Source: Bacteroidales bacterium
GTDB taxonomy: Bacteria; Bacteroidota; Bacteroidia; Bacteroidales; UBA932
Length of the DNA: 64,000 nt
Assembly (NCBI GenBank): GCA_017428325.1
Contig: JAFRRA010000006.1
Span: 186,001 to 250,000, forward strand
Direction of reading: 5' to 3'
Of the stretch, positions 45,456 through 60,612 are shown in pieces; positions within the stretch are counted from its first letter, which is position 1, and each line of letters begins with the position of its first letter. The translations under genes were made by a program, and so were the position numbers. The notes below the pieces were generated by a model, which had not been told where the DNA came from, did not search any database, and was given only the letters and a program-made list of their open reading frames with translations.

Positions 45456-45712
45456 ATCAAAGATTCAGATATATTCACGTAAAACTATAATCGTACAAAA
45501 TTAGGAAAAATAAATAGGATTTCATCCTATAAACCGCTTTCTGAATATTCAAGAAAATAGAAGAGATCTTTGATTACTTGTTTATTATTAGAGGCGTTTA
45601 AGGACGGTCATTCATGATTATTTTGAAAAACTTATCATCATTCCAAAGCCACTTTAATCATTCTTTTTTTCTATTAGATAATTCTCTGTGGATTATTCTT
45701 ACGAGATTTTTG
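45456..45712. other. Intergenic region at the left edge of the accessory island
   Basis: This is AT-rich DNA without a gene. CAAAATTA at 45496-45503 is TAATTTTG on the minus strand and probably the -7 box of tyrS, about 40 nt from its start codon. No insertion sequence, attachment repeat or tRNA fragment was recognised here. Confidence 0.6.
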
Positions 45713-45720
45713 TAAATTTG
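45713..45720 (+). promoter_or_regulatory. -7 promoter box of the island operon or leader RNA
   Basis: TAAATTTG fits TAnnTTTG. It precedes the self-complementary region 45727-45996 and is the last clear promoter box before the VWA gene at 46006, so transcripts should carry a leader of about 280 nt. Confidence 0.5.
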
Positions 45721-45726
45721 AGAGCT

Positions 45727-45996
45727 TATTAGCAAAATCGGCAGTTAACATAGAAAGCGTTTAGCTTTATTCCTTATTGGCGAATCTGGAAATTCGATTG
45801 TATTCGGAATCTATGAAAGACGCTTACGCTTGGTTATTGTTTGGCTCGCCTAGACGATAGCGAGAGAGTGGGCTTTTTTAGTATTCGACACAACCAATTC
45901 CAGCCTTGGTTTGACCGATAAGCGCCAATTGAATATGCTAAGGGGGCTCACACTTTCTATTTTACTAATATTTATTGCCCAAGAGCCTAGGCGTAA
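45727..45996 (+). ncRNA. Putative structured leader RNA or small RNA of unknown class
   Basis: Several perfect helices can be drawn. Domain 1: AAGCGT 45755/ACGCTT 45820, ATTCC 45769/GGAAT 45806, CGAAT 45781/ATTCG 45792, all nested. Domain 2: TGGGC 45869/GCCCA 45977, TTAGTA 45878/TACTAA 45963, AACCAA 45892/TTGGTT 45906, also nested. A hairpin CTCGC 45845/GCGAG 45860 competes or forms a pseudoknot with CGCCTAG 45847/CTAGGCG 45987. The region has no convincing reading frame and lies between a promoter box and the first island gene. I could not match it to 6S RNA, tmRNA, RNase P RNA or a known riboswitch. It could be an independent ncRNA or a cis-acting leader. Confidence 0.5.
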
Positions 45997-46005
45997 GTAG
46001 ATAAA

Positions 46006-47076
46006 ATGAAGCGGGCTTTTCTTTTTGCTCTTGCCCTTACAAGTTTTTATTGGTCATATGCCCAAACCGGCAATGTCAAGGATGTTCGCCAAATTTATTT
46101 GTGGGATGTGACACTATCTATGCAAGGTAAAGCAAAGAACATTGATGGTACGTTAACTCCTAACATCTGGAATCAGGTTAAAAATGCGATTATTGAAGAT
46201 ATTAAATCAATCTCTGATGACCATACAGAGATAGTTGTCATACCATTCCAACATAAGGCTCTTGACAAATGGAGCGCTTTTGCCACTAAAGACGGTAAGG
46301 ACTCGCTTATTAGAAAAATTAGCAATTATGTTTTGCCTTTATTTATAAAGCAAAACGGAAAGATTGTCCCCGCTAATGGCAAAGGTGGAACAACATGGAC
46401 ATGCTTATATGAACCTCTTAAAGAGGTTGTGAATAAGGTTTTATCTCCAGATAAAGTGGATATTCTAAAACTAATGACCGACGGCATTCCAGACGAACAT
46501 CAAGCAGAATACAAGAATCTGTTGCGTCACTGGTGCCAGATTGCGGAAGAAAAGGATGCTTTTGGTTTTTATATAATGCTCACATCTCAAGCTGTCGCTG
46601 GTCAAACTGTACTTGATACAATTAAGCCCTGCAGATTTGACGCTATTAATGTGACTGATTTGGGCGGAACTAATGTTTCTTTGCAGATGCTCACTCCACA
46701 GCATATTCTTGCCTTCAACATCCGTGAGGATTATGGCAAGGAACTCACTATTAAATATGCCCATAGTGGAAGTGGTCGTATTCAACCAGGTTATAAGATA
46801 CATGTTCGGTCATATGAGAACTCTTACATAGAAGTTGACGAAATCGTTGAGCTTAAGGAAGATTATACCGTCAGCGTAAAAGCCAAGTATCTAATGAGTC
46901 AGGCAGAGATGATAAGTAAATTATCCGTTGAAGAGAATGAAAAATTGTTCCTCTACAGCGAGCCTGCAGAAGATATGAATAAACTCCCATATGCCATGAC
47001 GAGAATCTTAGATACACCAACTACGATAGAAATGATTAACAAACCCGAAAAAACTGTGAAGTTCTATGTGCGCTAA
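46006..47076 (+). CDS. Secreted von Willebrand factor A (VWA) domain protein
   Basis: The protein has 356 residues. A signal peptide (AFLFALALTSFYWSYAQ, cut near 20) is followed by a VWA domain with a MIDAS-like metal site: IYLWDVTLSMQG (Asp34, Thr36, Ser38; the second position is Thr where Ser is usual), GGTTWT around 127-132 and LMTDGIPDE with Asp159. A beta-rich C-terminal region (~230-356) follows. VWA proteins bind partners in a metal-dependent way. The stop overlaps the next gene by 11 nt. VWA proteins are known companions of one prokaryotic tubulin-like family, which is encoded two genes on. Confidence 0.85.
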   Translation: MKRAFLFALALTSFYWSYAQTGNVKDVRQIYLWDVTLSMQGKAKNIDGTLTPNIWNQVKNAIIEDIKSISDDHTEIVVIPFQHKALDKWSAFATKDGKDSLIRKISNYVLPLFIKQNGKIVPANGKGGTTWTCLYEPLKEVVNKVLSPDKVDILKLMTDGIPDEHQAEYKNLLRHWCQIAEEKDAFGFYIMLTSQAVAGQTVLDTIKPCRFDAINVTDLGGTNVSLQMLTPQHILAFNIREDYGKELTIKYAHSGSGRIQPGYKIHVRSYENSYIEVDEIVELKEDYTVSVKAKYLMSQAEMISKLSVEENEKLFLYSEPAEDMNKLPYAMTRILDTPTTIEMINKPEKTVKFYVR

Positions 47077-48004
47077 AAGGTTTTGTCTATTGGCCGTACT
47101 ATTTTACTCCCTTTTATTATTGCCTTCTTGTGGAAAACAAAAGGATGATGTTACGGCACCAACTAGATGGGGAAAAGAGAACTGTTACAATAAGTTTCTC
47201 TGGAAAAAACACATACCAGATACATTATATAGAACCGTAGTATTTGACTTCAACGAAGATGCCCAAAACTATATGGGTCGACCGCTTCGTTTGGGTCTCT
47301 ATAAAAAAACTGAAAGCGGTAAAATGTTGCCCGTTACAGAGACTGAGATGGAGGTGTTTGTTGAAAAACAAAAGTGCCCAAACAATGTCATTGATGTTAA
47401 TCCCGGTACTGATCAACTTAACGTTGGAATAGTTTTCAAACCGCAAGCAGATAACAAAGTTCATCATTGGTTTTTTAAACCAGTGGATGATGCCGGATTG
47501 GACCGTATTAATGATCTGGATAATCAAACTTTTAATTCCAGCAATGCTTCACTAATGGAGTTGGAGGTTGAAAAGAATTTAATTATTAATCCATTGCGTC
47601 TTATTGTCCGAATAATTTGGATAACCCTATTGATTCTTTTAGCAATCTGGCTTCTATTCCTTAAAAGAATGGTTTATCCTTATTTTGGGGTAGGAAGAAT
47701 CACTCTGTCGGATCCGGAACCATATATGAAGCAGATAAACCTCAGAAAATACCGGAAATACGTTTTTACAAAAAGAAAGGATGCTAAGCAAAGTTGGTTT
47801 GCTAGATTATTCACGGGGCAGATAGGATATGATATTAATTCATTGTGGGATTCAGACATTGTTTTGGAACCTAGGAATCGTAAAAGTGTAAGAGTGTCTT
47901 TCGACAAGAACGTCTTCTATATAGACGGCAGAACACTCTCAGTTGGCAATGTCTATACTGTCGAAAATCTTAATACAAAGGCAAAAACAAAATTAGAAAT
48001 ATAA
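47066..48004 (+). CDS. Bitopic lipoprotein linking periplasm and cytoplasm, unknown family
   Basis: The protein has 312 residues. It starts with a lipoprotein-type signal (FYSLLLLPSCGK, Cys22), followed by a ~150-residue periplasmic part. A strong TM lies at ~178-202 (RIIWITLLILLAIWLLFLKR), then a ~110-residue basic cytoplasmic domain ending DGRTLSVGNVYTVENLN. The lipid anchor and the TM together would fix it in the inner membrane and let it connect the secreted VWA protein with the cytoplasmic tubulin-like protein encoded next. I do not recognise either domain. It starts inside the VWA gene and ends 4 nt before the tubulin-like gene. Confidence 0.75.
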   Translation: MCAKRFCLLAVLFYSLLLLPSCGKQKDDVTAPTRWGKENCYNKFLWKKHIPDTLYRTVVFDFNEDAQNYMGRPLRLGLYKKTESGKMLPVTETEMEVFVEKQKCPNNVIDVNPGTDQLNVGIVFKPQADNKVHHWFFKPVDDAGLDRINDLDNQTFNSSNASLMELEVEKNLIINPLRLIVRIIWITLLILLAIWLLFLKRMVYPYFGVGRITLSDPEPYMKQINLRKYRKYVFTKRKDAKQSWFARLFTGQIGYDINSLWDSDIVLEPRNRKSVRVSFDKNVFYIDGRTLSVGNVYTVENLNTKAKTKLEI

Positions 48005-48008
48005 GATT

Positions 48009-50747
48009 ATGGCTACAAAAATCAAACGCAGCCTATTTATAGGCCTTGGAGGAACAGGTATGAATTCCATCCTCCATACAAAAAAGATGTTTATCGAGTC
48101 TTACGGAGAAGTGCCACCTATGATCGGCTTCCTTGGAATAGATACAGATGGCGGAGCATACAAGAAATCCTTGACGACTCAGGACGGAAAGGAAGTTGTT
48201 CTTGATCCCAATGAACAGATGCCTATTCAGGTAACCAATCCGGAAGATATCTATAAGGTAAACAAGGAAGATTTTACTTGGCTTCCTGAGAAAAATCTTT
48301 ATGCGTTACAGTCTATGCACCTTGGCGCAGGTCAGGTAAGAAGTAACGGGCGATTTGCTTTTACGGTCAATTATGAGCAGGTTTCAAGGCGTCTGGAAAC
48401 TATTCTTGCTGAAATAGCCGGAGCCCATATTTCTGCAGACAGCCGCTGGGAGCTTATGAGCAACTCGACAGAAATCCATATGGTTTTCTCTGTTTGTGGA
48501 GGAACCGGGTGCGGAACCTTTATCAATATGGCCTATCTTTTAAGGGAGAAGGCTCCAAATTGCAAGCTCATTGGCTATGCCGTCCTTCCTGATGTTTTCA
48601 AGCTGATGTCAAAATCCGGAATGGCGAAAGTTGCTCCGAATGCTTTTGGGGCAATCAAGGATCTTGATTACCTGATGCATCTCGATATGGGCAAAAAGCC
48701 AGTTAAACTTGACTATATCAAAAACTCGATAGAGGCAACAGGACGTCCTTTCAACTCTGTCATTTTTATTGACAACAAGAATAATAACCTGGATACTTAT
48801 ACGGACATCAATGAATTGGCAGAGATGATAAGCCTTGCTCTTGTCACGTCTGCGGGAGAATTGTCTGCTGCATCCGCCAGTGTCGGCGACAACCTCGAGA
48901 AAAATATCCGTGAGGGCAATATGGATATCGAGAACAAGAAAGCCTGGGCAGCAGGAATGGGTGTATGCGAGATTATATACAGGGGAGATGATTTGGGAAA
49001 GATTTACTCACTGAAGGGCGCTATCAACCTCCTGGAACGTTTCTTTAACAGCTGCCACGATGCCAATCTACTTGCAAACAACTGGATAGACAGCTCTGAA
49101 GTCAATATTAGAGAGAACAACGGCAATGACCATGTTATTGATTTCATATGCAAGAAGGAGCCTAAATATGAACTGAACATTAATGACAATTCAAATCCTA
49201 AACCTGAGGCAGACCAGACAGTCCAGATGAATTTGATCAAGGACGAGGTTATTAACGCAAAAGTAAAGGAGCTTACGGGCAGGGTGAACAGTGAACTTGG
49301 CAAGCTGATAGTTGGTTTTGTAAATCATGAGTGCGGTGTTTCCACGGCCTTAAACGTGCTTGATTCTATAGAAGAACAGATTAACATATTCCTGGGAGAA
49401 ATGACTCAGGAAAAGGAAGACTTACTGGAAATGCAACCTAGAATCGAGTCTGAATTGCAGACTTCATGCATAGACCTTAGCGAATATGATAAGAAGTTCT
49501 TAAAGAACTCCAAGAGACTCGCCGAGTATTCGGATGATGTCCAGGCTGCCACGAGAAAACTGTCCATCAACAAGATAGAGATTCAAAGAAGAACAGCAGC
49601 CATTACCGTCTTCAACAATATTCTGGGCAAAATCAATACAGAAAGGACTAATGTCAAGCTGATATCTGATACTTTCAAGGCTATAATAAAGAAATTCTAT
49701 TCAGATTTGGCAAAGATTCAGAATAATGTCGGAAGAACAACTGCCGTATTCCAACTTGACCTGGCCAAGTCATCTGTCAACACTGTTGCGGTTGATGCCA
49801 GTGAAATTAGCATTCCTGACTTTGTAAGGGGTCTGGTTCAGGCAGACAAGGTATATTCGTTCAAGGATCTATCCACGGATCAAGTAGAACAATTGGTTCT
49901 GAAGTATTCAGACAGGCTGCATACGGCAAGGAAATGGAGAGATACTTCTATAGACGAAATTCTCAACAAGATGCCGGAGGAAGAGTTTACTCACCTTCTC
50001 AGGCAGGCTATCAGCAAATCCCTGCCTTTGTTCAGATACGACTACAGGGGACATCGTCCAAAGGAGAATCCACAGGATAGCTTCTTTATCGGGGTTCCTG
50101 ACAAGATGAACAGCCGTCTTTACAAGAACGATGTTTTCAAGTCTATGCTGACAGGATCCCCGGACGTGGACTTCTCCAACATTGCTAATAAGGATAAGGT
50201 TATTATTTACCGGCAGGTAGGTGTTGTGCCGGCTTATGCGATTGCATCAATAGCTGAATACTATAAGGAGTATATTGACTGTAATGCAAACTGTCATTTT
50301 GATGCAAATCTTCTTACCAGGATGGATAGGGAAGAATTCAGTCTAATGCCAAAGAAAACCACCGACGAGGATTTACTTGATCTTTGGGTTAAGGGTTTGA
50401 TTTTCGGCCTTATCAAGAATGAAGATGGCATGTACAAGGTCAAGATTCTTGAAAAAGGTGATGCGTTCGATGATTTCTGGGTCAATCTTAGTGAATTCAG
50501 GGATGAGGCTTTTGATGAGTTTAGGAAGAACAAGACATCTATACGCAAGGAGTTCTACGAGTTTTTGGGGAAGCTTGAAGAAGACAAGGGTAAGGAAGCC
50601 ATCAAGCAAATCATCGATGATGTCAAAGCGAATTACCTGGAAAAGTATTCTCAAATCAATATGCCTAAGGACAAATTGCGCCAGAGGGGATTTGAGAAAA
50701 TTAAAGATTTGCTGTCCTCTGAGTTGCTGCTGGTTCAGAAATATTAG
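48009..50747 (+). CDS. Tubulin/FtsZ-like GTPase (Tubulin_2 type)
   Basis: The protein has 912 residues. The nucleotide-binding fold shows SLFIGLGGTGMNS at 8-20 (tubulin/FtsZ first loop) and the tubulin signature VFSVCGGTGCGTF at 159-171 (consensus GGGTG[ST]G), with LIGYAVLPD and NAFGAIKDLDYLM in the expected order. About residues 430-600 are long charged helices, likely coiled coil. No TM or signal, so it is cytoplasmic. It is much longer than FtsZ (~400 aa). Makarova and Koonin described FtsZ-like families encoded beside VWA proteins and suggested membrane remodelling; this gene fits that setting. Polymer formation is inferred. Confidence 0.85.
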   Translation: MATKIKRSLFIGLGGTGMNSILHTKKMFIESYGEVPPMIGFLGIDTDGGAYKKSLTTQDGKEVVLDPNEQMPIQVTNPEDIYKVNKEDFTWLPEKNLYALQSMHLGAGQVRSNGRFAFTVNYEQVSRRLETILAEIAGAHISADSRWELMSNSTEIHMVFSVCGGTGCGTFINMAYLLREKAPNCKLIGYAVLPDVFKLMSKSGMAKVAPNAFGAIKDLDYLMHLDMGKKPVKLDYIKNSIEATGRPFNSVIFIDNKNNNLDTYTDINELAEMISLALVTSAGELSAASASVGDNLEKNIREGNMDIENKKAWAAGMGVCEIIYRGDDLGKIYSLKGAINLLERFFNSCHDANLLANNWIDSSEVNIRENNGNDHVIDFICKKEPKYELNINDNSNPKPEADQTVQMNLIKDEVINAKVKELTGRVNSELGKLIVGFVNHECGVSTALNVLDSIEEQINIFLGEMTQEKEDLLEMQPRIESELQTSCIDLSEYDKKFLKNSKRLAEYSDDVQAATRKLSINKIEIQRRTAAITVFNNILGKINTERTNVKLISDTFKAIIKKFYSDLAKIQNNVGRTTAVFQLDLAKSSVNTVAVDASEISIPDFVRGLVQADKVYSFKDLSTDQVEQLVLKYSDRLHTARKWRDTSIDEILNKMPEEEFTHLLRQAISKSLPLFRYDYRGHRPKENPQDSFFIGVPDKMNSRLYKNDVFKSMLTGSPDVDFSNIANKDKVIIYRQVGVVPAYAIASIAEYYKEYIDCNANCHFDANLLTRMDREEFSLMPKKTTDEDLLDLWVKGLIFGLIKNEDGMYKVKILEKGDAFDDFWVNLSEFRDEAFDEFRKNKTSIRKEFYEFLGKLEEDKGKEAIKQIIDDVKANYLEKYSQINMPKDKLRQRGFEKIKDLLSSELLLVQKY

Positions 50748-50755
50748 CTTGCCTT

Positions 50756-53700
50756 ATGAGACATACTACACATTTAATGCTGGGCTCTAATGCGTTGCCT
50801 CTGCTTAGTAATTTGAGACAGTACGTCATCAAGTACGGTAGTGTTGAAGTCAAAGATTTCTTGAACACGATACTATATGAATGCGGGGAGGCCGGTGAAG
50901 CTTTTAGCTTTGTAACAGACAAGGAACAGGACGATTCCAAATTTATACCCGGACTAGAGGAATTGTTTGAGTCCTGCATTTCAAAAGAGTGTGTAGTGCC
51001 AACGGAGCAAAGGACCGCATATATCAAGGGGTTCTTCCGCGATTTGTTCAACCGTTGCCTCAACATCAATAACCCCGGAGATACTAATTCCATGAATCTC
51101 TGTGTGTATGTTCCTCTATGGGTTGGGGCTAATGAATTTGAGAATCTATATGAGCTGCTAAAGGACATATCTGGCATAGAGCAGAAATACAATGTAGACC
51201 TGTTTCTTCTTCCATATGATCTTGCGTTTCTGTTCGAAAAGAACGATATGCTGTATACCCGCAGTACGGAATATGCTGAGAATACAGTTAAAAACCTTGA
51301 CAGGTTGCTTGCATGGAAGAAAGAGTTCCGCATTCTTTCCCATTTGCTGATGATGCGGAATTGCAACAGCAAGGGCCTGTCTTTAGGGCTGGATCAGAAT
51401 TCATTGGGAAGAATAATAGGAGAGTTTGCTCTATTAGGCATAACGGATTACGACAACTTGTTCCAGGTCAATGCGCAGGACCCGAACCGTCCTATATCTG
51501 CGTTGGGTATTTCTGTTCTTGGTTTCGACAAGTATTACTTTGTGCAGTATCTTCTGCACAAGGCTTACATAAGCATCTTGGACAGGGAGAAAGTGATGCA
51601 GGAAGAGGTGGATGTAAACAAGGTATCTAATATCGCTCATAAAATATTGAGCCAAAAGGTTTCTCTTTTCACGGATTTCTACAAGAATCATATAGAGCCA
51701 TTGCTGAATGACAATGTTCCGCAGAATCAGATAATTGAGATAATAAAACCGTTTTTGGATCAGACTATCGCACAAATGACGGTAGATTTCCAGTCTTACA
51801 TCGAAGATCCTGCTTTATCTCTTCCTGAAAAGAAAGCGACTTTGGCTCAGCTTCTTGGAGAAGATGACGCACTCTTGTCAGGATATCTATTCAACAAGAA
51901 GCAGCTAGTTCTGGAAGATTGTTCAAGAGAAGTTCTGGACCATTTCACAGATTATAACTCAAAACTTGCTTATTTTGGTCTGTTTGAGGAGTACCCTGAT
52001 ATAGAGGCTAATGAAATTAAAGACTATACTGTTCTTTCATTCGAGGGCGAGCCCCAGACAGAATCTGCCACAAATATGTTGTCGGCTCTTAAACAGACTA
52101 GAATCCAGATTCGTGAATCTACAAACTATATCCGTCAGAAAACAAAGGATCTGAATGATTTAAATGTCCAGAAGGTTGTTCATAGAGATAGTTTCAAGAG
52201 ACTGACAGACAAGGGTTTTGAATTTGACAATCACATATTTAAACTTGATAACGAGGAAGGTGCAGATATTCCTGTTGATGGGTATTATGAGCCGTCAACA
52301 TCTCTTCCAATTGCTTCCTCCATTGATTTGAGAAAGTTCTTCACCCCAGTAAAGAATCAGGGTGATATGGGGGCTTGTTCTGCTTTCGCCTTTGTATCTG
52401 TCTTTGAATCCATAATAAAGAAAAATACAAGCACAGATGTTAATCTCAGCGAGCAGTTCGTTTATTTTAATGCACGCAGGATTCAGGGAAATATAGCTTT
52501 AGACAGTGGATCCTCTGCTTCAAGCGTCCTTAAGACGATGAAGGCAGAAGGTGTCTGCGCAGAGGTTGAATTCCCGTATAATCCAGACCATCCAGATGAA
52601 GAGCCGCCGAAGGAAGCATATGACAGTGCACTTGACAACAAGATTGTTAAGGCATTGGCCGTTAAGCAAGATGACATCAAAGCCGCTATTTCCGAGGGCT
52701 ATCCGGTTGTGATCTCTTTAAGGATTTTTGATTCATTCAATCCAGTTAAGGGCTTAATCTCGAATCCGGAGGACGATGACATTAGATCTGCTAGCGGACT
52801 GCATGCTATGGTTATTTGTGGCTACAACGACGAGTATGGCTATTATGTGGTGAGAAATTCCTGGGGAACGAAATTCGGTGACAATGGATACTGTTATATT
52901 CCATATTCCTATATAGGCAATAAAGAACTGCTTCGCTTTGCGATTATTGTTACGGAAATCAGTAACACAAAGTTCAAGGTAAAGAGTACTGACAGGGATA
53001 CTGTATTTTCCTTCGATACGACAGATTCCTATATCAAGGCACAGATTCTCACTAATCTTATTGGTTTAGAGAAAAAGAAACTGGAAATCCTTAAAGAACG
53101 GGACAGGACAAATAGCAGCAAGTTTGCAAGTTTATTCCAGGCTATGGGGAATAACGCAAACAGAACATCTATTACAAACGGTACAATCAAGAGACTCCGG
53201 CTTGAAAGCGAGACTCTTGACAAGAAGAGAGCCAACCTTGATAATGAGAGGTTAAGAAAACTCAAGATTTTTGACAGGGAGACAAGAAATGCCAAGTGGC
53301 TTTTTGGGATTCTGATTGCTTTGGCATTCTTTGGTCTGGTTATGTCGTGCTATTTCTGCAAATCGTTGTCTCCTCTTACTAACAAATACATCTTGTATAG
53401 TGTTTACATCCCATACGCCCTGGGAACTTTCTATTTTCTTTATTACCTAAGAACCAGAAAAAGGCTTAGGAGAGAACTTGACCGTTACTATAGAAATCGT
53501 ATAGAGGATCTGGCACAAGAGTCTGCTCAAAGAATTCAGGAATCTGAAACGGCTCAGCTTAAGGGTCATCTTGCCGGTATGATCATTGATTCTCTCTATA
53601 AGCTGAATACCAACCTTAGAGTCAAATATGACAGTATGCGTTCGTATATAGGCAATTTAAGAAATTGGCGGGAAGACGAAACTATGGCAAGCAAGATGGA

Positions 53701-54250
53701 CGACATTGTAAAGGATCCTTTCTTATCGGTTTTGACCAATCGCTCGCTTGATGATTATTATAAACAGAAGGAAGAAGAAATCATTGCCGGTGCCTCTTTG
53801 AGCAGCATGTTCCGTGATAAGTATAAAGTCGGTGAGAAAGAAATTGTTGTTTTCCAGAACGATCTTAAGAAAACAATTGTGGCTCTTCTTGAAAAGCAGA
53901 TAAAAGATTTCTCTATTCTAGATTATGTTGCCGGTAATTTTAGATATGATTACCTGAGTACTGATTTAGATGAGATCCATGGATGGCTAAAAGCGATGGA
54001 CAAGAAATCAGAGCCTTTTGTCAGACTTAATTCTGCTCCTGAAACCACTGCCGTAATAAACTCTCACATTAAGCTTCTTTTCCTTCATTTCAGTGATGAC
54101 CAGGCTCGTCGGGATTGGGATGAAAAATGTTCAAAATATTTCACGAACAGGCCATCTATGTGCAATCAAAACTCTGCTGATAGAATCGTTCTTGTTCAGT
54201 TAAAGGGCGTGCCTGTGTCCGATATAAGTTTTACTGGCAATAGTAATTAG
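50756..54250 (+). CDS. Large protein with papain-like (C1) protease domain and two TM segments
   Basis: The protein has 1164 residues, with no signal peptide. Residues 1-~500 are mainly helical and unrecognised. Residues ~520-735 are a papain-fold peptidase with the full set of active residues: Gln535 and Cys541 in VKNQGDMGACSAFAF, His683 in SGLHAMVICGYND and Asn701 in VVRNSWGTKFGDNGY. A coiled-coil part follows (~765-840), two TMs (~848-867 and ~877-897), and a ~265-residue C-terminal helical domain. Both soluble ends are on the same side, probably the cytoplasm. Its place before hxsA makes HxsA or the tubulin-like protein possible substrates, which is inference. Confidence 0.82.
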   Translation: MRHTTHLMLGSNALPLLSNLRQYVIKYGSVEVKDFLNTILYECGEAGEAFSFVTDKEQDDSKFIPGLEELFESCISKECVVPTEQRTAYIKGFFRDLFNRCLNINNPGDTNSMNLCVYVPLWVGANEFENLYELLKDISGIEQKYNVDLFLLPYDLAFLFEKNDMLYTRSTEYAENTVKNLDRLLAWKKEFRILSHLLMMRNCNSKGLSLGLDQNSLGRIIGEFALLGITDYDNLFQVNAQDPNRPISALGISVLGFDKYYFVQYLLHKAYISILDREKVMQEEVDVNKVSNIAHKILSQKVSLFTDFYKNHIEPLLNDNVPQNQIIEIIKPFLDQTIAQMTVDFQSYIEDPALSLPEKKATLAQLLGEDDALLSGYLFNKKQLVLEDCSREVLDHFTDYNSKLAYFGLFEEYPDIEANEIKDYTVLSFEGEPQTESATNMLSALKQTRIQIRESTNYIRQKTKDLNDLNVQKVVHRDSFKRLTDKGFEFDNHIFKLDNEEGADIPVDGYYEPSTSLPIASSIDLRKFFTPVKNQGDMGACSAFAFVSVFESIIKKNTSTDVNLSEQFVYFNARRIQGNIALDSGSSASSVLKTMKAEGVCAEVEFPYNPDHPDEEPPKEAYDSALDNKIVKALAVKQDDIKAAISEGYPVVISLRIFDSFNPVKGLISNPEDDDIRSASGLHAMVICGYNDEYGYYVVRNSWGTKFGDNGYCYIPYSYIGNKELLRFAIIVTEISNTKFKVKSTDRDTVFSFDTTDSYIKAQILTNLIGLEKKKLEILKERDRTNSSKFASLFQAMGNNANRTSITNGTIKRLRLESETLDKKRANLDNERLRKLKIFDRETRNAKWLFGILIALAFFGLVMSCYFCKSLSPLTNKYILYSVYIPYALGTFYFLYYLRTRKRLRRELDRYYRNRIEDLAQESAQRIQESETAQLKGHLAGMIIDSLYKLNTNLRVKYDSMRSYIGNLRNWREDETMASKMDDIVKDPFLSVLTNRSLDDYYKQKEEEIIAGASLSSMFRDKYKVGEKEIVVFQNDLKKTIVALLEKQIKDFSILDYVAGNFRYDYLSTDLDEIHGWLKAMDKKSEPFVRLNSAPETTAVINSHIKLLFLHFSDDQARRDWDEKCSKYFTNRPSMCNQNSADRIVLVQLKGVPVSDISFTGNSN

Positions 54251-54284
54251 ATGATTTATTTTTGATTAAACATAAACTAAGTAT

Positions 54285-55175
54285 ATGAAAAGAAAGTATA
54301 ATAGTTTATTAAAGAAAGTTGTGGCTTCTTCTGTAGCGGCAATTGCTTCTACCTATGGAGCTGATGCTACCCCAGATTACTCTTTCAATGAATCATCAGA
54401 TTGCAATATTAAGGAAACGTCTTTAAAGAGAAATCTTAAGGAAAAACTATTATTGAAGATGACGTCTGATGGGGACTATTATTTGTCCTCTCATAGAAGT
54501 CATAGTTCTCATCGCAGTCACAGTTCCCATCGTTCTGGATCTTCACATTATTCCTCTTCGCATACATCTCATTACTCTTCCTCTGTGACAAACACTTCAC
54601 GAAGTCCCTCAAAATCTACTGGTTCTAAAACGAAAACCACAAATAATCAAACGGGAAAAGTATCTGGTATTTATTCCGGAATATCATCAAGTAAGAGCTC
54701 CATAGGAAGCCGTAGTATCTCATTGGGCATGTCTGGTCCCGATATAAAAGAAGTGTCTGAATGCCTGATTGCTTTGAGGTATTTGAAGGCAAGCCAGCTA
54801 TCAAAAATACCAAGTGGAGATGTTATCTGTGACGAAATTGTTATGACAGGATTGAAGCAATATATGATAGATAAGGGCCTAAATCCAGACAGAGCTTTTT
54901 CTAAAGAAATGGCTTTGGGTTTAAAAATAGACTCAGATAATTATAAGGCTTTAGGAGATCGTTTGCTTTCTCCAGGTAGTGTGGGAACAGATGTTACAGA
55001 GTTAAGAAATTTGTTGATAGACAAAGGATATCTTAAAGGAAAGAAAAAAGGAAAGTTCGAAATATCTGAATTCGACGAAACCTTACTTGAAATACTTGAA
55101 GCATTCTTGTCTGACAATAATAGATCTTGGACAGGATTTGTTGATTCTGCGATTGTTAATCTGTTAAAACAGTAA
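54285..55175 (+). CDS. hxsA: His-Xaa-Ser repeat protein HxsA (target of the Hxs maturases)
   Basis: The protein has 296 residues. The N-terminus is signal-like (KKVVASSVAAIASTYGADA). Residues 70-98 hold eight His-Xaa-Ser triplets (His 70, 73, 76, 79, 82, 88, 93, 96), then a Ser/Thr/Lys-rich spacer. From ~150 on there are two segments with the look of peptidoglycan-binding_1 repeats (SLGMSGPDIKEVSECLIALR and LSPGSVGTDVTELRNLL). Haft and colleagues predicted HxsA to be modified on its HxS repeats by the radical SAM enzymes HxsB and HxsC, which are encoded just downstream. The chemistry is unknown. An exported, wall-linked RiPP-like product is a reasonable inference. Confidence 0.9.
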   Translation: MKRKYNSLLKKVVASSVAAIASTYGADATPDYSFNESSDCNIKETSLKRNLKEKLLLKMTSDGDYYLSSHRSHSSHRSHSSHRSGSSHYSSSHTSHYSSSVTNTSRSPSKSTGSKTKTTNNQTGKVSGIYSGISSSKSSIGSRSISLGMSGPDIKEVSECLIALRYLKASQLSKIPSGDVICDEIVMTGLKQYMIDKGLNPDRAFSKEMALGLKIDSDNYKALGDRLLSPGSVGTDVTELRNLLIDKGYLKGKKKGKFEISEFDETLLEILEAFLSDNNRSWTGFVDSAIVNLLKQ

Positions 55176-55179
55176 TCAA

Positions 55180-55521
55180 ATGACAGATATAAGACTTGTT
55201 AACAATAAAACTATTGTTGTTAAAGTAGATACTTCTATTTATGACAATTGGGTTATTGATAAGGTATTATATTGGTGGTCTCAAGATTATACAATAACCA
55301 GGAAAAATTCTTCAAAGGGAATACAGACAATCTTTCTTTCGCCCAAAAGAACAAATAATACAATTTCTCTAGAAACAATTAAAGAAAGGCTAAGTACAGA
55401 TTTCATCGATTATAAAAACCGCCATACTATTTTTAAAGAAACATCTAATCTAAGGGATATTTTGTTTGCAAAGGCTTTTGCTAATTGTGATGATTTTATA
55501 GAGTTTAAGTTTAAAGAATGA
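55180..55521 (+). CDS. hxsD: His-Xaa-Ser system protein HxsD
   Basis: The protein has 113 residues. It is a small soluble protein with the family pattern of a beta-rich N-terminus (KTIVVKVDTSIYDNWVIDKV) and the C-terminal block FIDYKNRHTIFKETSNLRDI, which corresponds to the family's N-D-Y-x-L-R-E region. HxsD always accompanies hxsABC and may serve as a recognition or partner protein for the maturases. It is placed between hxsA and hxsB with gaps of 4 and 1 nt. Confidence 0.82.
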   Translation: MTDIRLVNNKTIVVKVDTSIYDNWVIDKVLYWWSQDYTITRKNSSKGIQTIFLSPKRTNNTISLETIKERLSTDFIDYKNRHTIFKETSNLRDILFAKAFANCDDFIEFKFKE

Positions 55522-55522
55522 G

Positions 55523-56932
55523 ATGTACTATTTGCTGCCTTTTCATTTTAGGGTTTTACAAGACAAAGAGGTTCTCACCAATGATCTTGGTGATTATCTA
55601 ATAGTTCCCCGGGGTAGCGTAGACCGTATTGTCAATAGAAAAATTTCAGAGGAAGAAGATCTTTTCAAAGACCTTCTTGGTGGTTTTTTTGTTGGAACTC
55701 AACCAATTCCACGCCTTATAGAGAATATGGCAACGAGATTAGCAACTAGGAAAAGTTTCTTAGATGATTTTACCTCGTTACATATTTTTGTGCTGACCTT
55801 AAGGTGTAATCAGAATTGTATTTATTGCCAGGCATCTAGCCATGACCGCCGCGATAGTGGATATGACATGAGTGAAGATGATTTAAGGGCCGCTGTAGAT
55901 TTAATGTTTCAATCTCCTTCAAAACATTTGACGATGGAGTTCCAGGGCGGAGAACCCACGTTAGTTTCTAAGTTGATCCGTTCGGGTATTCTTTATGCAG
56001 AGAAAAAGAATTTGACGGAAAAAAGATCCATTACTTATGTGATTTGCAGTAACTGCGTTTATGTGAGTGATGACTTTTTGTCATTCTGCAGTAAGTTCAA
56101 TGTTGTCTTTTCAACTTCATTAGATGGTCCAGAATTCTTACATAATCACAATCGAGGCAAGGTTAGTAGTTATAAAAGAGTGACTTCTGGAATACAGAAG
56201 GTTCGGAATGTGTTGGGAAATGACAAGATATCTGCTTTAATGACGACTTCCGAAGAATCATTGAAGTATCCAAAAGAAATCGTAGATGCATATTTAGAGA
56301 ATGGGTTCCGAAGTATTTTTCTCCGTGCTCTTAACCCTTATGGATTAGCCAGAACTAATGAGAACTGGCTTGCTTATTATGATTCTTTTGTACATTTCTA
56401 TAAGGAATCTTTGGATTATATACTAGAACTGAATAAGAATGGTGTGTTTTTCGTTGAAGAATTTACCACGCTGATTCTCAAGAAAATTGTGACACCATTT
56501 CCTATAGGCTTTGTTGATTTGCAAACGCCATCCGGCATTATAAATGGTGTCATAGTTTATAATTACGATGGAAAGGTCTACGCATCTGACGAATCACGTA
56601 TGTTAGCCGAGTACAAGGATTATACTTTTTGTTTAGGAAGGGTTACTGATAAATATGAAGACCTATTTTATGGGGAAAGGGCTCAGAAACTGTCTCGAAT
56701 TTGGTCTACTGAATGTATTGCGGGTTGCTCTGAATGTGCTTATCAAAGCATTTGTGGCGCAGATCCTGTTCGCAATTATACAACACAAGGGGATTCTTAC
56801 GGCTTCCGCCCATCTTCAACTATCTGTAGGAAAAATAGATTAATTATTGATCACATTTTCTCTCTTCTATCAAGTCGAGCAGAAGAAGTTCTTCCGATAT
56901 TTTTGAACTGGATAACGGGAACAAGGGCATGA
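55523..56932 (+). CDS. hxsB: Radical SAM/SPASM maturase HxsB
   Basis: The protein has 469 residues. The radical SAM cluster motif is CNQNCIYC (Cys 95, 99, 102), followed by MEFQGGEPTL (the GGE motif) and an auxiliary cluster region near the C-terminus (CIAGCSECAYQSICGADP). The first ~85 residues resemble a peptide-recognition part. SPASM enzymes modify peptides by radical chemistry; this one is predicted to act on HxsA. Its stop overlaps hxsC by 4 nt. Confidence 0.92.
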   Translation: MYYLLPFHFRVLQDKEVLTNDLGDYLIVPRGSVDRIVNRKISEEEDLFKDLLGGFFVGTQPIPRLIENMATRLATRKSFLDDFTSLHIFVLTLRCNQNCIYCQASSHDRRDSGYDMSEDDLRAAVDLMFQSPSKHLTMEFQGGEPTLVSKLIRSGILYAEKKNLTEKRSITYVICSNCVYVSDDFLSFCSKFNVVFSTSLDGPEFLHNHNRGKVSSYKRVTSGIQKVRNVLGNDKISALMTTSEESLKYPKEIVDAYLENGFRSIFLRALNPYGLARTNENWLAYYDSFVHFYKESLDYILELNKNGVFFVEEFTTLILKKIVTPFPIGFVDLQTPSGIINGVIVYNYDGKVYASDESRMLAEYKDYTFCLGRVTDKYEDLFYGERAQKLSRIWSTECIAGCSECAYQSICGADPVRNYTTQGDSYGFRPSSTICRKNRLIIDHIFSLLSSRAEEVLPIFLNWITGTRA

Positions 56933-57801
56933 GGAGTATTATAGATATCAACTCTAATGACAACGCATTGTTTACTACCGCAATGTGTAATAATCGATGT
57001 ATAATGTGTTGCCAACCGCCTCTGGGAGTAGATGATATTGAGAAAAACTGGAAGAACAATCTAAAGCTGATAATAACTGCTCCTAAAAATTTACCTTCTA
57101 TAGGAATTACCGGAGGTGAACCAACGTTGTTAGGAGAAAAATTCTTTGAGTTAATTCAATCTATTAGAGAAAATTTACCGAATACTGAAATACATATTCT
57201 TACTAATGGACGAAAATTCTCTGACAAGAAATTTGCTTCTAGATTAGCCGATCTTGGAACAGATAATATTTTGATTGGAGTTCCCCTACACAGTGATAAT
57301 GAATTAGACCATGATTTGATCGCTGGTGTTAAAGGAGCTTTTTCAGAAACAATGTTGGGACTGTATAATTTGGCTAGATTCTCTTTTGATATTGAGCTTC
57401 GCATTGTATTGATGAAACTCAATTATAAAAGACTTCCCAAAATGGGCTCTTTTATTTTTAAGAATATCCCTTTTGTTAAGTATATTTCGTTAATGGGTCT
57501 TGAAAATACCGGTGATGCCATAAAGAACAAGAGTATAGTCTATGTAGATCCTGTTGATCTCGCTGAGAATTTGAGAAAAGTAGCATTATATCTCTCAGGC
57601 GTGGGTCTAAATGTGTCAATCTTCAACCTAAGCTATTGTCTTCTACCTGAGACATTATGGCCATTTGCCCGCAAGTCCATCTCTGACTGGAAAGTTAGAT
57701 ATGAACCGTTTTGTTCACGTTGCACAATGAAAAAAGAGTGTTGTGGATTGTTCGCTACATCCGCCTTCCAGAGCTCACATTTACATCCTATCAATTATTA
57801 A
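56929..57801 (+). CDS. hxsC: Radical SAM maturase HxsC
   Basis: The protein has 290 residues. The radical SAM motif is CNNRCIMC (Cys 20, 24, 27), followed by GITGGEPTLLGEKF and a Cys-containing C-terminus (CSRCTMKKECCG). In the Hxs system two radical SAM enzymes are encoded together, and both are present and intact here. The gene ends 1 nt before the channel gene. Confidence 0.92.
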   Translation: MRSIIDINSNDNALFTTAMCNNRCIMCCQPPLGVDDIEKNWKNNLKLIITAPKNLPSIGITGGEPTLLGEKFFELIQSIRENLPNTEIHILTNGRKFSDKKFASRLADLGTDNILIGVPLHSDNELDHDLIAGVKGAFSETMLGLYNLARFSFDIELRIVLMKLNYKRLPKMGSFIFKNIPFVKYISLMGLENTGDAIKNKSIVYVDPVDLAENLRKVALYLSGVGLNVSIFNLSYCLLPETLWPFARKSISDWKVRYEPFCSRCTMKKECCGLFATSAFQSSHLHPINY

Positions 57802-57802
57802 C

Positions 57803-58597
57803 ATGAGAAAGTTCATTTATCGTGTAGTTGAAAGAGGACAAACTGAAAATAAGATTAGTTTGTCCTATGATTTAATAATGCTCCTTGCCATAACGGCTAG
57901 TATTATTCCTTTGATGTTTGTAAAAGAATATCCTGTTTTCCGAATTATTGAGATTATAACGGTCATTTTGTTTATTATAGATTATGTTTTACGCTGGATT
58001 ACTGCCGATTACAGATTAGGACGTCGGGGCTGGTCTTTCCTAATATACCCATTTACGGGCTGGGCAATAATAGATTTGTTATCTATTCTTCCTGGGTTAA
58101 GTGTGTTATCCAAAGGATTTAAAATCTTTAGGGTAACACGTATGTTGAGAATTATTAGGCTGTTTAAGTATATACGTTATTTCGATAAAATCCAGATTTT
58201 GGGCAAAGTTCTCCGCAAAGAAAAAGGAGTGTTGATCACTGTTCTTTTTATAGCAGTTTTCTATGTTTTTCTTACAGCCCTAATTATGTTTAATGCAGAG
58301 CCACATATTAACCCTTCAACAGGAGCAGCGACCTTTGAAAGTTTCTTTGACGCACTATATTGGGCCACAGTAACACTAACAACTGTTGGATATGGCGATA
58401 TGATACCGGTAACGGATCTTGGCAGATTCATAAGTATGCTATCTTCTCTATTCGGAGTTGCAATTATAGCCCTCCCTTCTGGTGTAATTACAGCTAGGTA
58501 TCTTGAAGAATTAAGGAATTCTAAAAGAATTAGGACAGATGAGCCCAATAATGATATGGACTCCTTGACAACAACTGATGTAAACAAAAAGAAATGA
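57803..58597 (+). CDS. Voltage-gated-type potassium channel
   Basis: The start is set at ATG 57803 (MRKFIYRVVE), 264 residues; the longer frame overlaps hxsC. It has a six-TM layout with an S4 segment carrying regularly spaced basic residues (FRVTRMLRIIRLFKYIRYF, ~109-127), a pore helix (FFDALYWATVTL) and the K+ filter TTVGYGD at 193-199, then S6 (ISMLSSLFGVAIIALPSGVI) and a short cytoplasmic tail. It should conduct K+ through the inner membrane and open with changes of membrane potential. Gaps of 1 and -4 nt tie it to hxsC and the nuclease gene. Confidence 0.92.
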   Translation: MRKFIYRVVERGQTENKISLSYDLIMLLAITASIIPLMFVKEYPVFRIIEIITVILFIIDYVLRWITADYRLGRRGWSFLIYPFTGWAIIDLLSILPGLSVLSKGFKIFRVTRMLRIIRLFKYIRYFDKIQILGKVLRKEKGVLITVLFIAVFYVFLTALIMFNAEPHINPSTGAATFESFFDALYWATVTLTTVGYGDMIPVTDLGRFISMLSSLFGVAIIALPSGVITARYLEELRNSKRIRTDEPNNDMDSLTTTDVNKKK

Positions 58598-59373
58598 GAA
58601 GATTTATTATTATCGTCATTGTTCTGTTGCTCTTGCCTGTTCATTTGCTGTCTCAAGGACGAATTCTTTCCCCGGAAGAGATAAAAACTGGCCTTAATGA
58701 GCTTCCTAGATTGTCTTCTTCTGACATTCTAATAATGTATTCTGGCTATATAGCAAATTACAATAATAGAATGCTTATTCCTAATTGGGTGGCCTATGAA
58801 TTAACTGAAGATGAAGTGGTAAATAATCCCCCTCCCTTTCGAGGATCTTTTATACCAGACCCGAATGTTTCTTATATGCAAGCAGATGGGTTCGATTATA
58901 GAGGCTCTGGATGGTCTCGAGGGCATATGGCACCTGCTGCTGATTTTAAGTGGAGCAAAAATGCCTATAATGATACCTTTTATTATACAAACTGTTGCCC
59001 TCAGAATCAAGAAATGAATAATGGCAGCTGGAACGTTTTAGAAAATTATGTTCGTAAGTTGGCTGTTCGATATGGGAAAGTATATGTTGTTACTGGTCCT
59101 TATATAGGTTTTAATAAATACGGAAAGATTGGAAATAATGGGGTTGTGGTCCCAGATGGTTTTTTCAAAGCTTTGTTAGTATGTAAAGACGAAACTTATT
59201 ATGGAATAGGTTTCTATATGGAAAACGTTCCTCAGAAACAGTCACTAAAAGATAGTTATGTTAGTATTGCTGATTTGGAATTACTAACGGGGATAGAGTT
59301 TTTCCCTTTTATAGGTAGAGACAAGCGGTTTTCTTCCGTTAAAACAACTATTAATACAATTATTTGGTTTTGA
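58594..59373 (+). CDS. Secreted DNA/RNA non-specific endonuclease (NUC family)
   Basis: The protein has 259 residues. A signal peptide (FIIIVIVLLLLPVHLLSQ) is followed by the NUC domain: SGWSRGHMAPAADFKW with catalytic His111 (consensus DRGHL; here the Asp is Ser108), then the metal-site region TNCCPQNQEMNNGSWNVLE, and VYVVTGPYI. The family cuts DNA and RNA with Mg2+ and works outside the cytoplasm. No immunity protein is seen beside it. It overlaps the channel gene by 4 nt and ends the packed operon. Confidence 0.9.
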   Translation: MRRFIIIVIVLLLLPVHLLSQGRILSPEEIKTGLNELPRLSSSDILIMYSGYIANYNNRMLIPNWVAYELTEDEVVNNPPPFRGSFIPDPNVSYMQADGFDYRGSGWSRGHMAPAADFKWSKNAYNDTFYYTNCCPQNQEMNNGSWNVLENYVRKLAVRYGKVYVVTGPYIGFNKYGKIGNNGVVVPDGFFKALLVCKDETYYGIGFYMENVPQKQSLKDSYVSIADLELLTGIEFFPFIGRDKRFSSVKTTINTIIWF

Positions 59374-59672
59374 TTAACGACTCTATTATAAAAAACGAAC
59401 ACACAACAAGAGCTCCTAATGGAGAAATGAGACCAGAAGACACTCACTTAACTAAGACAAATCACAAAATCCTCCTAATAAATCTAGGATTGTACCAAAA
59501 TTGTGGGCGATTTATGGAATTGTACAAAAATGTGTGACGGGTAAAGCTGTTTTGTTGATTCGCAAAATGAACCATCATTTGGTAAAAGTAAGTAGTCCTA
59601 AAATGCCTTCTTGACAGTAATTGTCAAACCAAAGCTGTACTTTTGCGCTGGAGATACTTAATTCAAGTAGTT
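59374..59672. other. Gap between the nuclease and CoiA-like genes, with a direct repeat
   Basis: No gene is visible in this ~300-nt stretch. It holds an imperfect 21-nt direct repeat at 59489-59509 and 59519-59539 (both start ATTGTAC and end with CG), at an exact 30-nt period. It also holds a short hairpin AATCCT 59468/AGGATT 59486. The repeats might be the remnant of an insertion-sequence end or a protein-binding array. Confidence 0.5.
59611..59645 (+). promoter_or_regulatory. Promoter with overlapping palindromic operator for the CoiA-like gene
   Basis: TTGACA-GTAAT-TGTCAA (59611-59626) is a perfect 6-bp inverted repeat. It overlaps a TTG -33 element (59621-59623), with TACTTTTG (59638-59645) as the -7 box, 27 nt before the ATG at 59673. 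A repressor binding the palindrome would block the promoter. Confidence 0.6.
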
Positions 59673-60578
59673 ATGGGAAAATTGTTGATAGAGATAGCTT
59701 ACGATGAAAATAAGAACATCGTGTTTGTTAACAATGCTGTTAAGGGCAAGATGTATTTCTGTCCAAAATGTGGTGAAGAATTGATATTCAAAAATAGCGG
59801 AAAAACTGGACAGGGTTCACGTTGTCCTCATTTTGCACATAAAGGTTGTGGTGGACACAACTGTGACCCCGAATCGGTTTTACACGCCGCTTTTAAAAAG
59901 GAAACTGCAAAAATATTAAGCAGTCACCTTAAAGAAAGCACGGGCTTTAATATCAAATGGAGGTGTTCAGATTGCGGTTCCCAATATTCTGGAGATTTGT
60001 TATTTCTCGCAAAAACCGTTGAAGTTGAATATGATTTAAAAGTTTGTAGGCCCGATATTGCGTTGTTAGATGATGCCGGGAAAGTCAGAATTGCTATTGA
60101 GATAGTTAACACTCATGCTCCAGAAGAAAAAGTAGAGAAATATTATAATGATAATGGTATTGTTCTCGTTCAGTATAATGTCCATGAAGATGATTTATTA
60201 AATATTGAAGAAAAACTTCTAAAACCAGATATCGTTTCTCTTTGTCTTAATTCTGCCTGTAAAACCTTCGTTGCTAGCTTATTAAGCCGTCGCATAGATA
60301 CAGAAAAAGCTACTTGTAAAAGATGCGGAAAGCAAGTTGATGTGTTTTATGCTGAGTATCAATCACCCCTTGGTCATATTTTATACTATGGAATAAACAA
60401 TAATGACTTGTTAGTATTAGAGAAGAAGGGTATCGCGAGCAATATGCTAATGAAAGCAACATTTACCAAAAACAATATCTCCATCGACACCATAGCAACA
60501 AAGTGTCCATGTGTCAAAAATGTTTATTATACTTTTTCGCGGTCTCCTAGACGGAGAAGAAGATATCCCAGTTTTTAA
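59673..60578 (+). CDS. CoiA-like zinc-finger/nuclease-fold protein
   Basis: The start is set at ATG 59673 (MGKLLIEIAYDENK), 301 residues; upstream only TTG codons are in frame. The N-terminus has a zinc ribbon (MYFCPKCGEELIFK, Cys 30 and 33) and SRCPHFAHKGC, the pattern of CoiA-type proteins. A second Cys pair follows (WRCSDCGSQYSG), then a possible PD-(D/E)xK core (CRPDIALLDDAGKVRIAIEIV) and a third ribbon (CKRCGKQVDVFY). CoiA is needed in natural competence, but many CoiA-like proteins sit in mobile or defence regions. It has its own promoter and operator. Confidence 0.75.
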   Translation: MGKLLIEIAYDENKNIVFVNNAVKGKMYFCPKCGEELIFKNSGKTGQGSRCPHFAHKGCGGHNCDPESVLHAAFKKETAKILSSHLKESTGFNIKWRCSDCGSQYSGDLLFLAKTVEVEYDLKVCRPDIALLDDAGKVRIAIEIVNTHAPEEKVEKYYNDNGIVLVQYNVHEDDLLNIEEKLLKPDIVSLCLNSACKTFVASLLSRRIDTEKATCKRCGKQVDVFYAEYQSPLGHILYYGINNNDLLVLEKKGIASNMLMKATFTKNNISIDTIATKCPCVKNVYYTFSRSPRRRRRYPSF

Positions 60579-60579
60579 T

Positions 60580-60603
60580 CTCCGCCAATCATTAGTCGCG
60601 GAG
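60580..60603. terminator. Short hairpin between convergent genes
   Basis: CTCCGC (60580-60585) pairs with GCGGAG (60598-60603). On the minus strand it is followed by ATTAAAAA. It may end transcription from one or both sides, but the T-run is weak. Confidence 0.35.
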
Positions 60604-60612
60604 TAATGTCAA

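Follow-up and report, generated by a model that had tools for sequence, protein, structure and literature searches.

Radical S-adenosylmethionine (SAM) systems of the His-Xaa-Ser (Hxs) type were reportedly described by Haft and Basu in 2011. Operons combining an FtsZ-like-1 GTPase with a von Willebrand factor A (vWA) protein were proposed in 2010 to act in membrane remodeling, a function that stands as a prediction in the accessible part of the paper (Makarova and Koonin, PMC2875224). The accessible portion of Kaur et al. 2020 (PMC7159879) describes GAP1-N2 GTPase-centric conflict systems that include a tubulin homolog and an extracellular vWA protein, vWA systems coupled to radical-SAM peptide modification, peptidases paired with NucA nucleases, and FxSxx-type peptides as radical-SAM-modified outputs. 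TerY-P-like modules are stand-alone antiphage systems according to the available text of PMC11090510. Here, we analyzed a 64,000-nt stretch of a Bacteroidales bacterium genome (assembly GCA_017428325.1, contig JAFRRA010000006.1, positions 186,001 to 250,000; hereafter the window), in which a ten-gene operon joins a tubulin-like GTPase core to an Hxs cassette, a K+ channel, and a nuclease. We interpret it as a possible conflict operon, mosaic in structure, composed of two exchangeable modules, and most likely directed against phages or competitors, with a rough probability of 0.45.

The operon overlaps with each of these systems in part. With the FtsZ-like-1/vWA operons, as the accessible part of PMC2875224 presents them, it shares a Tubulin_2 GTPase, a VWA-like protein, and membrane proteins, but it differs by a fixed papain protease and a bitopic lipoprotein; the P-loop GTPase, kinase, and OmpA partners named there have no Pfam match among the window's ten proteins. 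The likeness to the GAP1-N2 systems in the available text of PMC7159879 lies in the tubulin homolog and a VWA-like protein, whereas none of the ten proteins matches GAP1 or a TRAFAC GTPase at an E-value of 0.1, and the main text of that paper makes no mention of His-Xaa-Ser. As in Hxs systems, hxsB, hxsC, and hxsD score over curated cut-offs and the substrate carries an HxS array; unlike them, the window has a long HxsA with C-terminal repeats below curated cut-offs, the gene order A-D-B-C, an attached channel, and a junction to a nucleoside triphosphate (NTP)-dependent core. At two other Hxs loci (L042 and L090), related Hxs, channel, and nuclease genes accompany genes of the TerY-P triad type, namely VWA, kinase, PP2C, and zinc ribbon, whereas Pfam finds neither a kinase nor a PP2C in the window operon. 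In the open-licence literature searched, in the portions it provides, no paper tying Hxs to a tubulin or TerY-P core turned up, and among open-licence titles for Hxs terms, one of which was examined, no paper on what Hxs cassettes do was found. The repeated joining of Hxs and FtsZ-like-1, alongside a channel and a nuclease, allows both to be tested within a single operon, and it suggests that NTP-dependent conflict systems can have radical-SAM-modified proteins as outputs, in addition to the FxSxx-type peptides of PMC7159879 as far as its accessible portion extends.

Composition of the ten-gene operon

The ten open reading frames (ORFs) at 46006-59373 all lie on the + strand, separated by -11, 4, 8, 34, 4, 1, -4, 1, and -4 nt, with three overlaps (Table 1). 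This bears out the ten same-strand genes, coordinates, and spacings of a first-pass annotation made from the sequence alone. The gene labels of that annotation fared unevenly: profiles back the tubulin, protease, HxsB, HxsC, HxsD, channel, and nuclease, whereas the VWA and lipoprotein labels have no family-library match. The G+C content of the operon genes is 27.8-42.5%, compared with 49.3% for window bases 1-44000.

Table 1 Features of the window at and around the ten-gene operon
Feature	Coordinates	Strand	Basis
Variable island beside tyrS	45512..60610		Comparison with congeners
Rod-like structured leader RNA, 47 nt before the vwa start codon	45752..45958	+	Models R1/R2, covariation
VWA-like protein (vwa), 356 aa, first core gene; probably exported	46006..47076	+	Invariant MIDAS-like residues
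Bitopic lipoprotein (lipo), 312 aa: lipobox, outer part, transmembrane segment 171-207, C-terminal part	47066..48004	+	Lipobox Cys, hydropathy
FtsZ-like-1 / Tubulin_2 GTPase (tub), 912 aa	48009..50747	+	PF13809 159.1 bits, GLGGTG and GGTGCG motifs
Large papain-family protease (pap), 1164 aa, hydrophobic segment 845-872	50756..54250	+	PF00112, invariant residues, hydropathy
hxsA, substrate protein with HxS array and C-terminal repeats resembling peptidoglycan-binding domains	54285..55175	+	TIGR03979 below cut-off, H-x-S units
hxsD	55180..55521	+	TIGR03976 71.7 bits, over cut-off
hxsB, radical-SAM maturase, CxxxCxxC and C-terminal Cys cluster	55523..56932	+	TIGR03978, cysteines
hxsC, radical-SAM maturase, CNNRCIMC	56929..57801	+	TIGR03977, motif
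Ion_trans-family voltage-gated-type K+ channel, TVGYG filter	57803..58597	+	PF00520, PDB matches
NucA-type DNA/RNA nuclease, hydrophobic N-terminus	58594..59373	+	PF01223, hydropathy, tree

In the VWA-like protein, D34, T36, S38, and T158-D159-G160, which are of the metal ion-dependent adhesion site (MIDAS) type, are invariant in 13 of 13 aligned sequences (the window and 12 of the 16 further core loci described below). Its one weak PDB profile match is PTMP1 (E 0.0024), which we take to carry VWA domains. The lipoprotein has no Pfam or NCBIfam match; its lipobox Cys is invariant in all 15 aligned sequences, and its hydrophobic segment is evident from hydropathy. The GTPase far exceeds the Tubulin_2 cut-off of 27 bits and contains GLGGTG at residue 12 and GGTGCG at residue 164, the latter a possible variant of the tubulin-type GTP loop GGGTG(S/T)G whose G164, G165, T166, G167, and G169 are invariant in 17/17. 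The protease matches Peptidase_C1 with 82.8 bits (cut-off 20.7; E 5e-23), and Q535, C541, H683, and N701, presumably with the catalytic roles of their papain counterparts, are invariant in 17/17; the hydropathy scan found its internal hydrophobic segment and no N-terminal one. Nor did it pick up an N-terminal segment in the VWA-like protein or in HxsA; judging by eye from their N-termini, both are probably exported.

The Hxs enzymes score well over their NCBIfam cut-offs (HxsB 563.4 bits against 370; HxsC 330.5 against 267.9; HxsD against 50). HxsA remains under every one (30.6/121.65 for TIGR03979, 25.7/65, and 21.8/48 bits), although it contains eight H-x-S units, four of which are invariant in 9/9 aligned sequences. 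The channel matches Ion_trans with 109.1 bits (cut-off 25), its best PDB matches are KCNQ/Kv channels, and the TVGYG filter is present in all five channel homologs at Hxs loci. The nuclease matches Endonuclease_NS with 173.7 bits (cut-off 23; E 6e-51), and its hydrophobic N-terminus points to export. We do not claim a dead enzyme: the DRGH motif is variable (SRGH in the window, L069, and L040; DKGH in L065, L066, and L074), yet its His is kept in 10/10.

Distribution and exchange of the core and the Hxs cassette

A pattern-based scan with the GTPase as query, covering one genome per species in 84,980 species and reaching close relatives only, returned 16 further loci, with vwa, lipo, tub, and pap all matching in 15. 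At the remaining one, L065, the contig ends inside the operon and vwa is the sole core gene missing; its genome (G306) has a vwa gene, together with a leader copy, on another contig, C37, and the two contigs presumably join. Among close relatives, vwa-lipo-tub-pap is a fixed gene block, which loosens farther away. Six loci with weaker GTPase matches in the family, a set that leaves out G482, the eleventh genome of the GTPase family census, have all four core genes (L094), lipo-tub-pap (L097), tub-pap on a short contig (L095), a fused vwa/lipo gene with tub and no recognizable pap (L096), or tub alone (L106 and L107). A search for plasmid copies gave four plasmid records with partial Tubulin_2 matches, none spanning 80% of the query.

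The genes that follow the core were compared at the 13 other loci showing at least 6 kb past pap (L070, L072, and L078 show about 3 kb or less). A related nuclease follows in four (L065, L066, L069, and L074), and other followers include a beta-galactosidase (L064) and an M16 peptidase (L068). L067 carries a Nav/Cav-family (Na+/Ca2+) channel gene at 9069-9875, with a T-x-E-x-W type filter by eye, overlapping the core protease gene.

The first-pass annotation had considered a fusion confined to one genome as the case that would undo a single system. That case does not apply, as core and Hxs cassette are fused in three genomes of three genera (the window genome, G306, and G375). A core tree built from concatenated GTPase and protease sequences of 19 loci places the window as sister to (L067,(L074,((L064,L079),(L065,L066)))), and with midpoint rooting L069 branches next. 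A single clade of the three Hxs-bearing cores was rejected by the approximately unbiased (AU) test on 12 sequences (log-likelihood difference 126.7; p-AU 4e-13, from 2000 resamplings, a number that the program warns is too low). In the window, pap is followed by hxsADBC-channel and then by the nuclease; at L065 and L066 the order is nuclease, a small extra gene, and then hxsADBC, with the channel after it in L066 only. Since the fused cores do not form one clade and the cassette stands before the nuclease in one case and after it in the others, separate gains are the simplest explanation, and the cassette would have been gained at least twice by fused cores. A history of one gain, three or more losses, and a rearrangement is a conceivable alternative. 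The nuclease tree, (L069,(W,(L074,(L065,L066)))) with W the window, agrees with the core tree at node support of 0.83 to 0.999. Because of this matching branching, the nuclease looks ancestral to the core lineage and absent in L067 and L064/L079, and in relatives that have it, it tracks the core half, not the inserted Hxs cassette. As for the small gene of L065 and L066, neither copy has a Pfam match and the L065 copy has no useful PDB match; a suspicion, raised by eye, that it is TerB-like is not claimed.

The cassette also occurs away from the core. HxsB (window query, E 1e-60) is present in 5 of 398 family genomes, three with the core fused and two elsewhere, and at L089 hxsADBC and the channel stand alone. 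A phylum sample, in which the GTPase was not searched, had HxsB (E 1e-80) in 1/395, the window genome only, too rare for a test. The Hxs-channel cassette moves separately from the core.

Two operons of TerY-P type, on the minus strands of L090 (3586-17153) and L042 (4672-16793), carry an hxsADBC cassette and a K+ channel. The same-strand run in L090 comprises zinc ribbon, kinase, VWA, PP2C, two genes resembling an uncharacterized L042 gene, hxsADBC, a gene, the nuclease, a gene, and the channel. In L042, from a different family, the TerY-P, Hxs, and channel genes are arranged similarly, and a divergently oriented nuclease gene lies upstream. The TerY-P genes were called in L042 by Pfam and in L090 by 50-85% identity to L042.

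Gene neighborhoods were further compared across 21 HxsB loci and the window, grouped by HxsA type in a grouping of our own. Among 11 loci with long HxsA (the window, L040-L043, L065, L066, L083, L084, L089, and L090), the nuclease lies about 7 kb or nearer to hxsB in 7 and the channel in 5. At the 11 loci of the other type (L032-L039, L044, L085, and L086, some incomplete), a nuclease is near hxsB in one and a channel in none. As background, 41 of 79 family genomes have nuclease homologs (E 1e-10) and 10 of 79 have channel homologs. The presence of related cassettes beside a different machine in other bacteria suggests exchangeable parts of conflict systems. We tentatively propose that hxsADBC and the K+ channel, which often have a NucA nuclease close by, may together be a mobile effector module that plugs into VWA-centred cores (FtsZ-like-1/papain, TerY-P) of bacterial conflict systems; if so, the long-enigmatic Hxs modification would gain a role as an immune or warfare output.

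Weighing the conflict-operon reading

In a mosaic conflict operon, the first module would be a sensor-transducer, with the VWA-like protein and an inner-membrane-anchored lipoprotein facing a cytosolic GTPase and a membrane-bound protease. An envelope perturbation might be relayed by the lipoprotein, upon which the GTPase would assemble in a GTP-dependent manner and activate the papain protease. The second module would be the payload, in which HxsB and HxsC, with HxsD, would modify the H-x-S array of HxsA beside the K+ channel and, in the core's own lineage, the nuclease. Modified HxsA may then act at the wall, the channel may collapse the membrane potential, and the nuclease may cut incoming DNA. 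The chance that this sequence-derived scheme holds step by step is small.

In favor of a modular conflict operon are the conserved core block, the adjacency of GTPase and HxsB within the family, the rejected single clade of fused cores, the matching nuclease and core trees, the related cassettes in TerY-P operons and alone with the channel, and the defence-type cargo beside tyrS. Several other observations weigh against it. The first-pass annotation had viewed the ten genes as a single system. Its co-directional gene set, with VWA and tubulin in one half and Hxs, channel, and nuclease in the other, is supported, but a fixed ten-gene system is not: Hxs follows the core at 2 of the 13 other loci (L065 and L066) and is absent after 11, Hxs occurs elsewhere without the core, and in an order-wide sample of 295 genomes, with Tubulin_2 in 9 and HxsB over its cut-off in 14, a single genome, that of the window, has both. 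Co-occurrence across the order failed as support for one system. Within the family it counts in favor: in 199 genomes, the GTPase is found in 11 (E 1e-3) and HxsB in 3 (E 1e-60), all three with the GTPase adjoining (hypergeometric 1.3e-4, which ignores kinship). Two Cytophagales plasmid Hxs cassettes lack any compared partner protein. Among 79 family genomes, channel homologs above 60% identity occur in four (the window genome, G306, G325, and G343), and those of G306 (C31), G325, and G343 lie away from Hxs, which weakens the channel as an Hxs-specific gene. At the protein level, the VWA label lacks profile support, with no Pfam or NCBIfam match, and hhalign pairs the MIDAS segments of the VWA-like protein with those of the Pfam-positive VWA proteins of L042/L090 at a probability of 0.9%. 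A search of the ten proteins against PADLOC-DB 2.0.0 matched only HxsB and HxsC, as radical-SAM proteins, to viperin models; PADLOC also fails to call the L042/L090 VWA proteins as TerY (E 0.0062 and none), and the antiphage TerY-P-like modules have an OB-fold kinase, not the zinc-ribbon kind, in the accessible text of PMC11090510. Finally, the operon occupies a variable island beside tyrS, whose genes may gather without working together. The congener G399 matches the window as far as 45511 and again from 61619, and the stretch between contains an AlbA_2/HATPase gene and one small ORF; in G297, whose genes were not profiled, no defence-type gene was recognized beside tyrS. Both sides of the island were seen for G388 and G399, and the tyrS side alone for G365 and G297.

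Some of these points would also fit two independent accessory systems side by side in a hot spot, with Hxs inserted 3' in a tubulin operon and merely co-transcribed: both halves occur alone, order-wide co-occurrence is lacking (1/295), and the island slot is variable. Such a chance neighborhood would have to accommodate fusion at two different positions, spacing of -4 to +34 nt, an arrangement kept across two genera (L065 and L066, the former without the channel there), and a related payload adjoining another VWA-centred operon, and we regard it as doubtful, though deserving serious consideration.

A membrane-remodeling, vesicle, or surface-structure machine that displays modified, wall-bound HxsA in a structural or adhesive role seems improbable. 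The membrane-remodeling proposal for FtsZ-like-1 and vWA operons, as the accessible part of PMC2875224 has it, speaks for such a machine, as do a weak peptidoglycan-binding match of HxsA (PG_binding_1, E 0.08, below cut-off) and the annotation of HxsA from two plasmid cassettes as peptidoglycan-binding; its patchy presence (the GTPase in 11/199 family genomes), the nuclease and channel parts, and the defence-type cargo beside tyrS in two congeners speak against it. Radical-SAM enzymes of the type that act on ribosomally synthesized and post-translationally modified peptides share the operon with a protease, which could also indicate a bacteriocin-like operon, in which the papain protease would free a peptide toxin from HxsA and the channel and nuclease would be auxiliary toxins or immunity proteins. 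That is very improbable: the protease lacks an N-terminal segment by hydropathy and is present in cores with no adjoining Hxs, and Pfam identifies no ABC exporter family among the ten proteins.

Island cargo and leader RNA

The congener G388 matches the window up to 45511 and from 60611, and the genes in between differ: a SNF2 helicase (PADLOC ZorD/DpdE models) and two proteins matching the candidate-defence model PDC-M38A, one of which also matches ParB under its cut-off. In G365 (L121 2-13916), a PP2C gene lies about 1.6 kb from tyrS, past one intervening gene, and is followed by MADS-like genes with mad2, mad5, mad6, mad7, and mad8 as their best or lower-ranking PADLOC matches; by score, type II methyltransferase and specificity subunits fit the first two better. 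Defence-type cargo is therefore seen beside tyrS in 2/4 congeners and proven to share the slot in one. Within the window's island, a CoiA-like zinc-ribbon protein (59643..60578, +; CoiA_N E 2e-4, below cut-off) is encoded about 270 nt past the operon and probably lies outside it.

The leader RNA upstream of vwa matches models R1/R2, both of whose training sets contain the window copy. It occurs once in the window genome, and no Rfam match reaches gathering score in the window. In six sequences, whose alignment also yielded the structure under test, 96.8% of cells are paired versus 88.4% in shuffles, with 17 double-change cells versus 6.3; slid structures are 36-52% paired, and further pair types are no better than shuffles (294/500). 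An early signal, a 19-mer with at most one mismatch, is found once in the window genome and in 2/21 genomes. Hits of the leader models also lie just 5' of tubulin and hxs operons. The leader was nevertheless rejected as a signature of the operon: a control across whole genomes turned up at least 142 matches, spread over 27 of the 30 genomes chosen and numbering up to 24 in one genome, a lower bound as most genomes had more initial candidates than were scored, and the matches precede genes that are diverse by eye. Because it is dispersed across Bacteroidales genomes, it provides no evidence of a link between tubulin and Hxs operons.

These copies constitute a family of rod-shaped leaders in Bacteroidales, mostly about 160-210 nt long (L127-L156). 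Twenty-five of 30 copies end 18-88 nt before a same-strand ORF of at least 60 aa (8 of the 30 served model training), and a mobile origin resembling that of miniature inverted-repeat transposable elements (MITEs) is conceivable. In a genome of the window's genus (G475), L125 (1785-11511) is an operon behind the same leader that opens with a lipoprotein and a transmembrane protein. It encodes a 465-aa tubulin-like protein (GGTGASG, by eye), an actin/HSP70-like ATPase with a Pfam match below cut-off, MotA- and MotB-like proteins that weakly match ZorA/ZorB, and a nuclease sharing 53% identity with that of the window.

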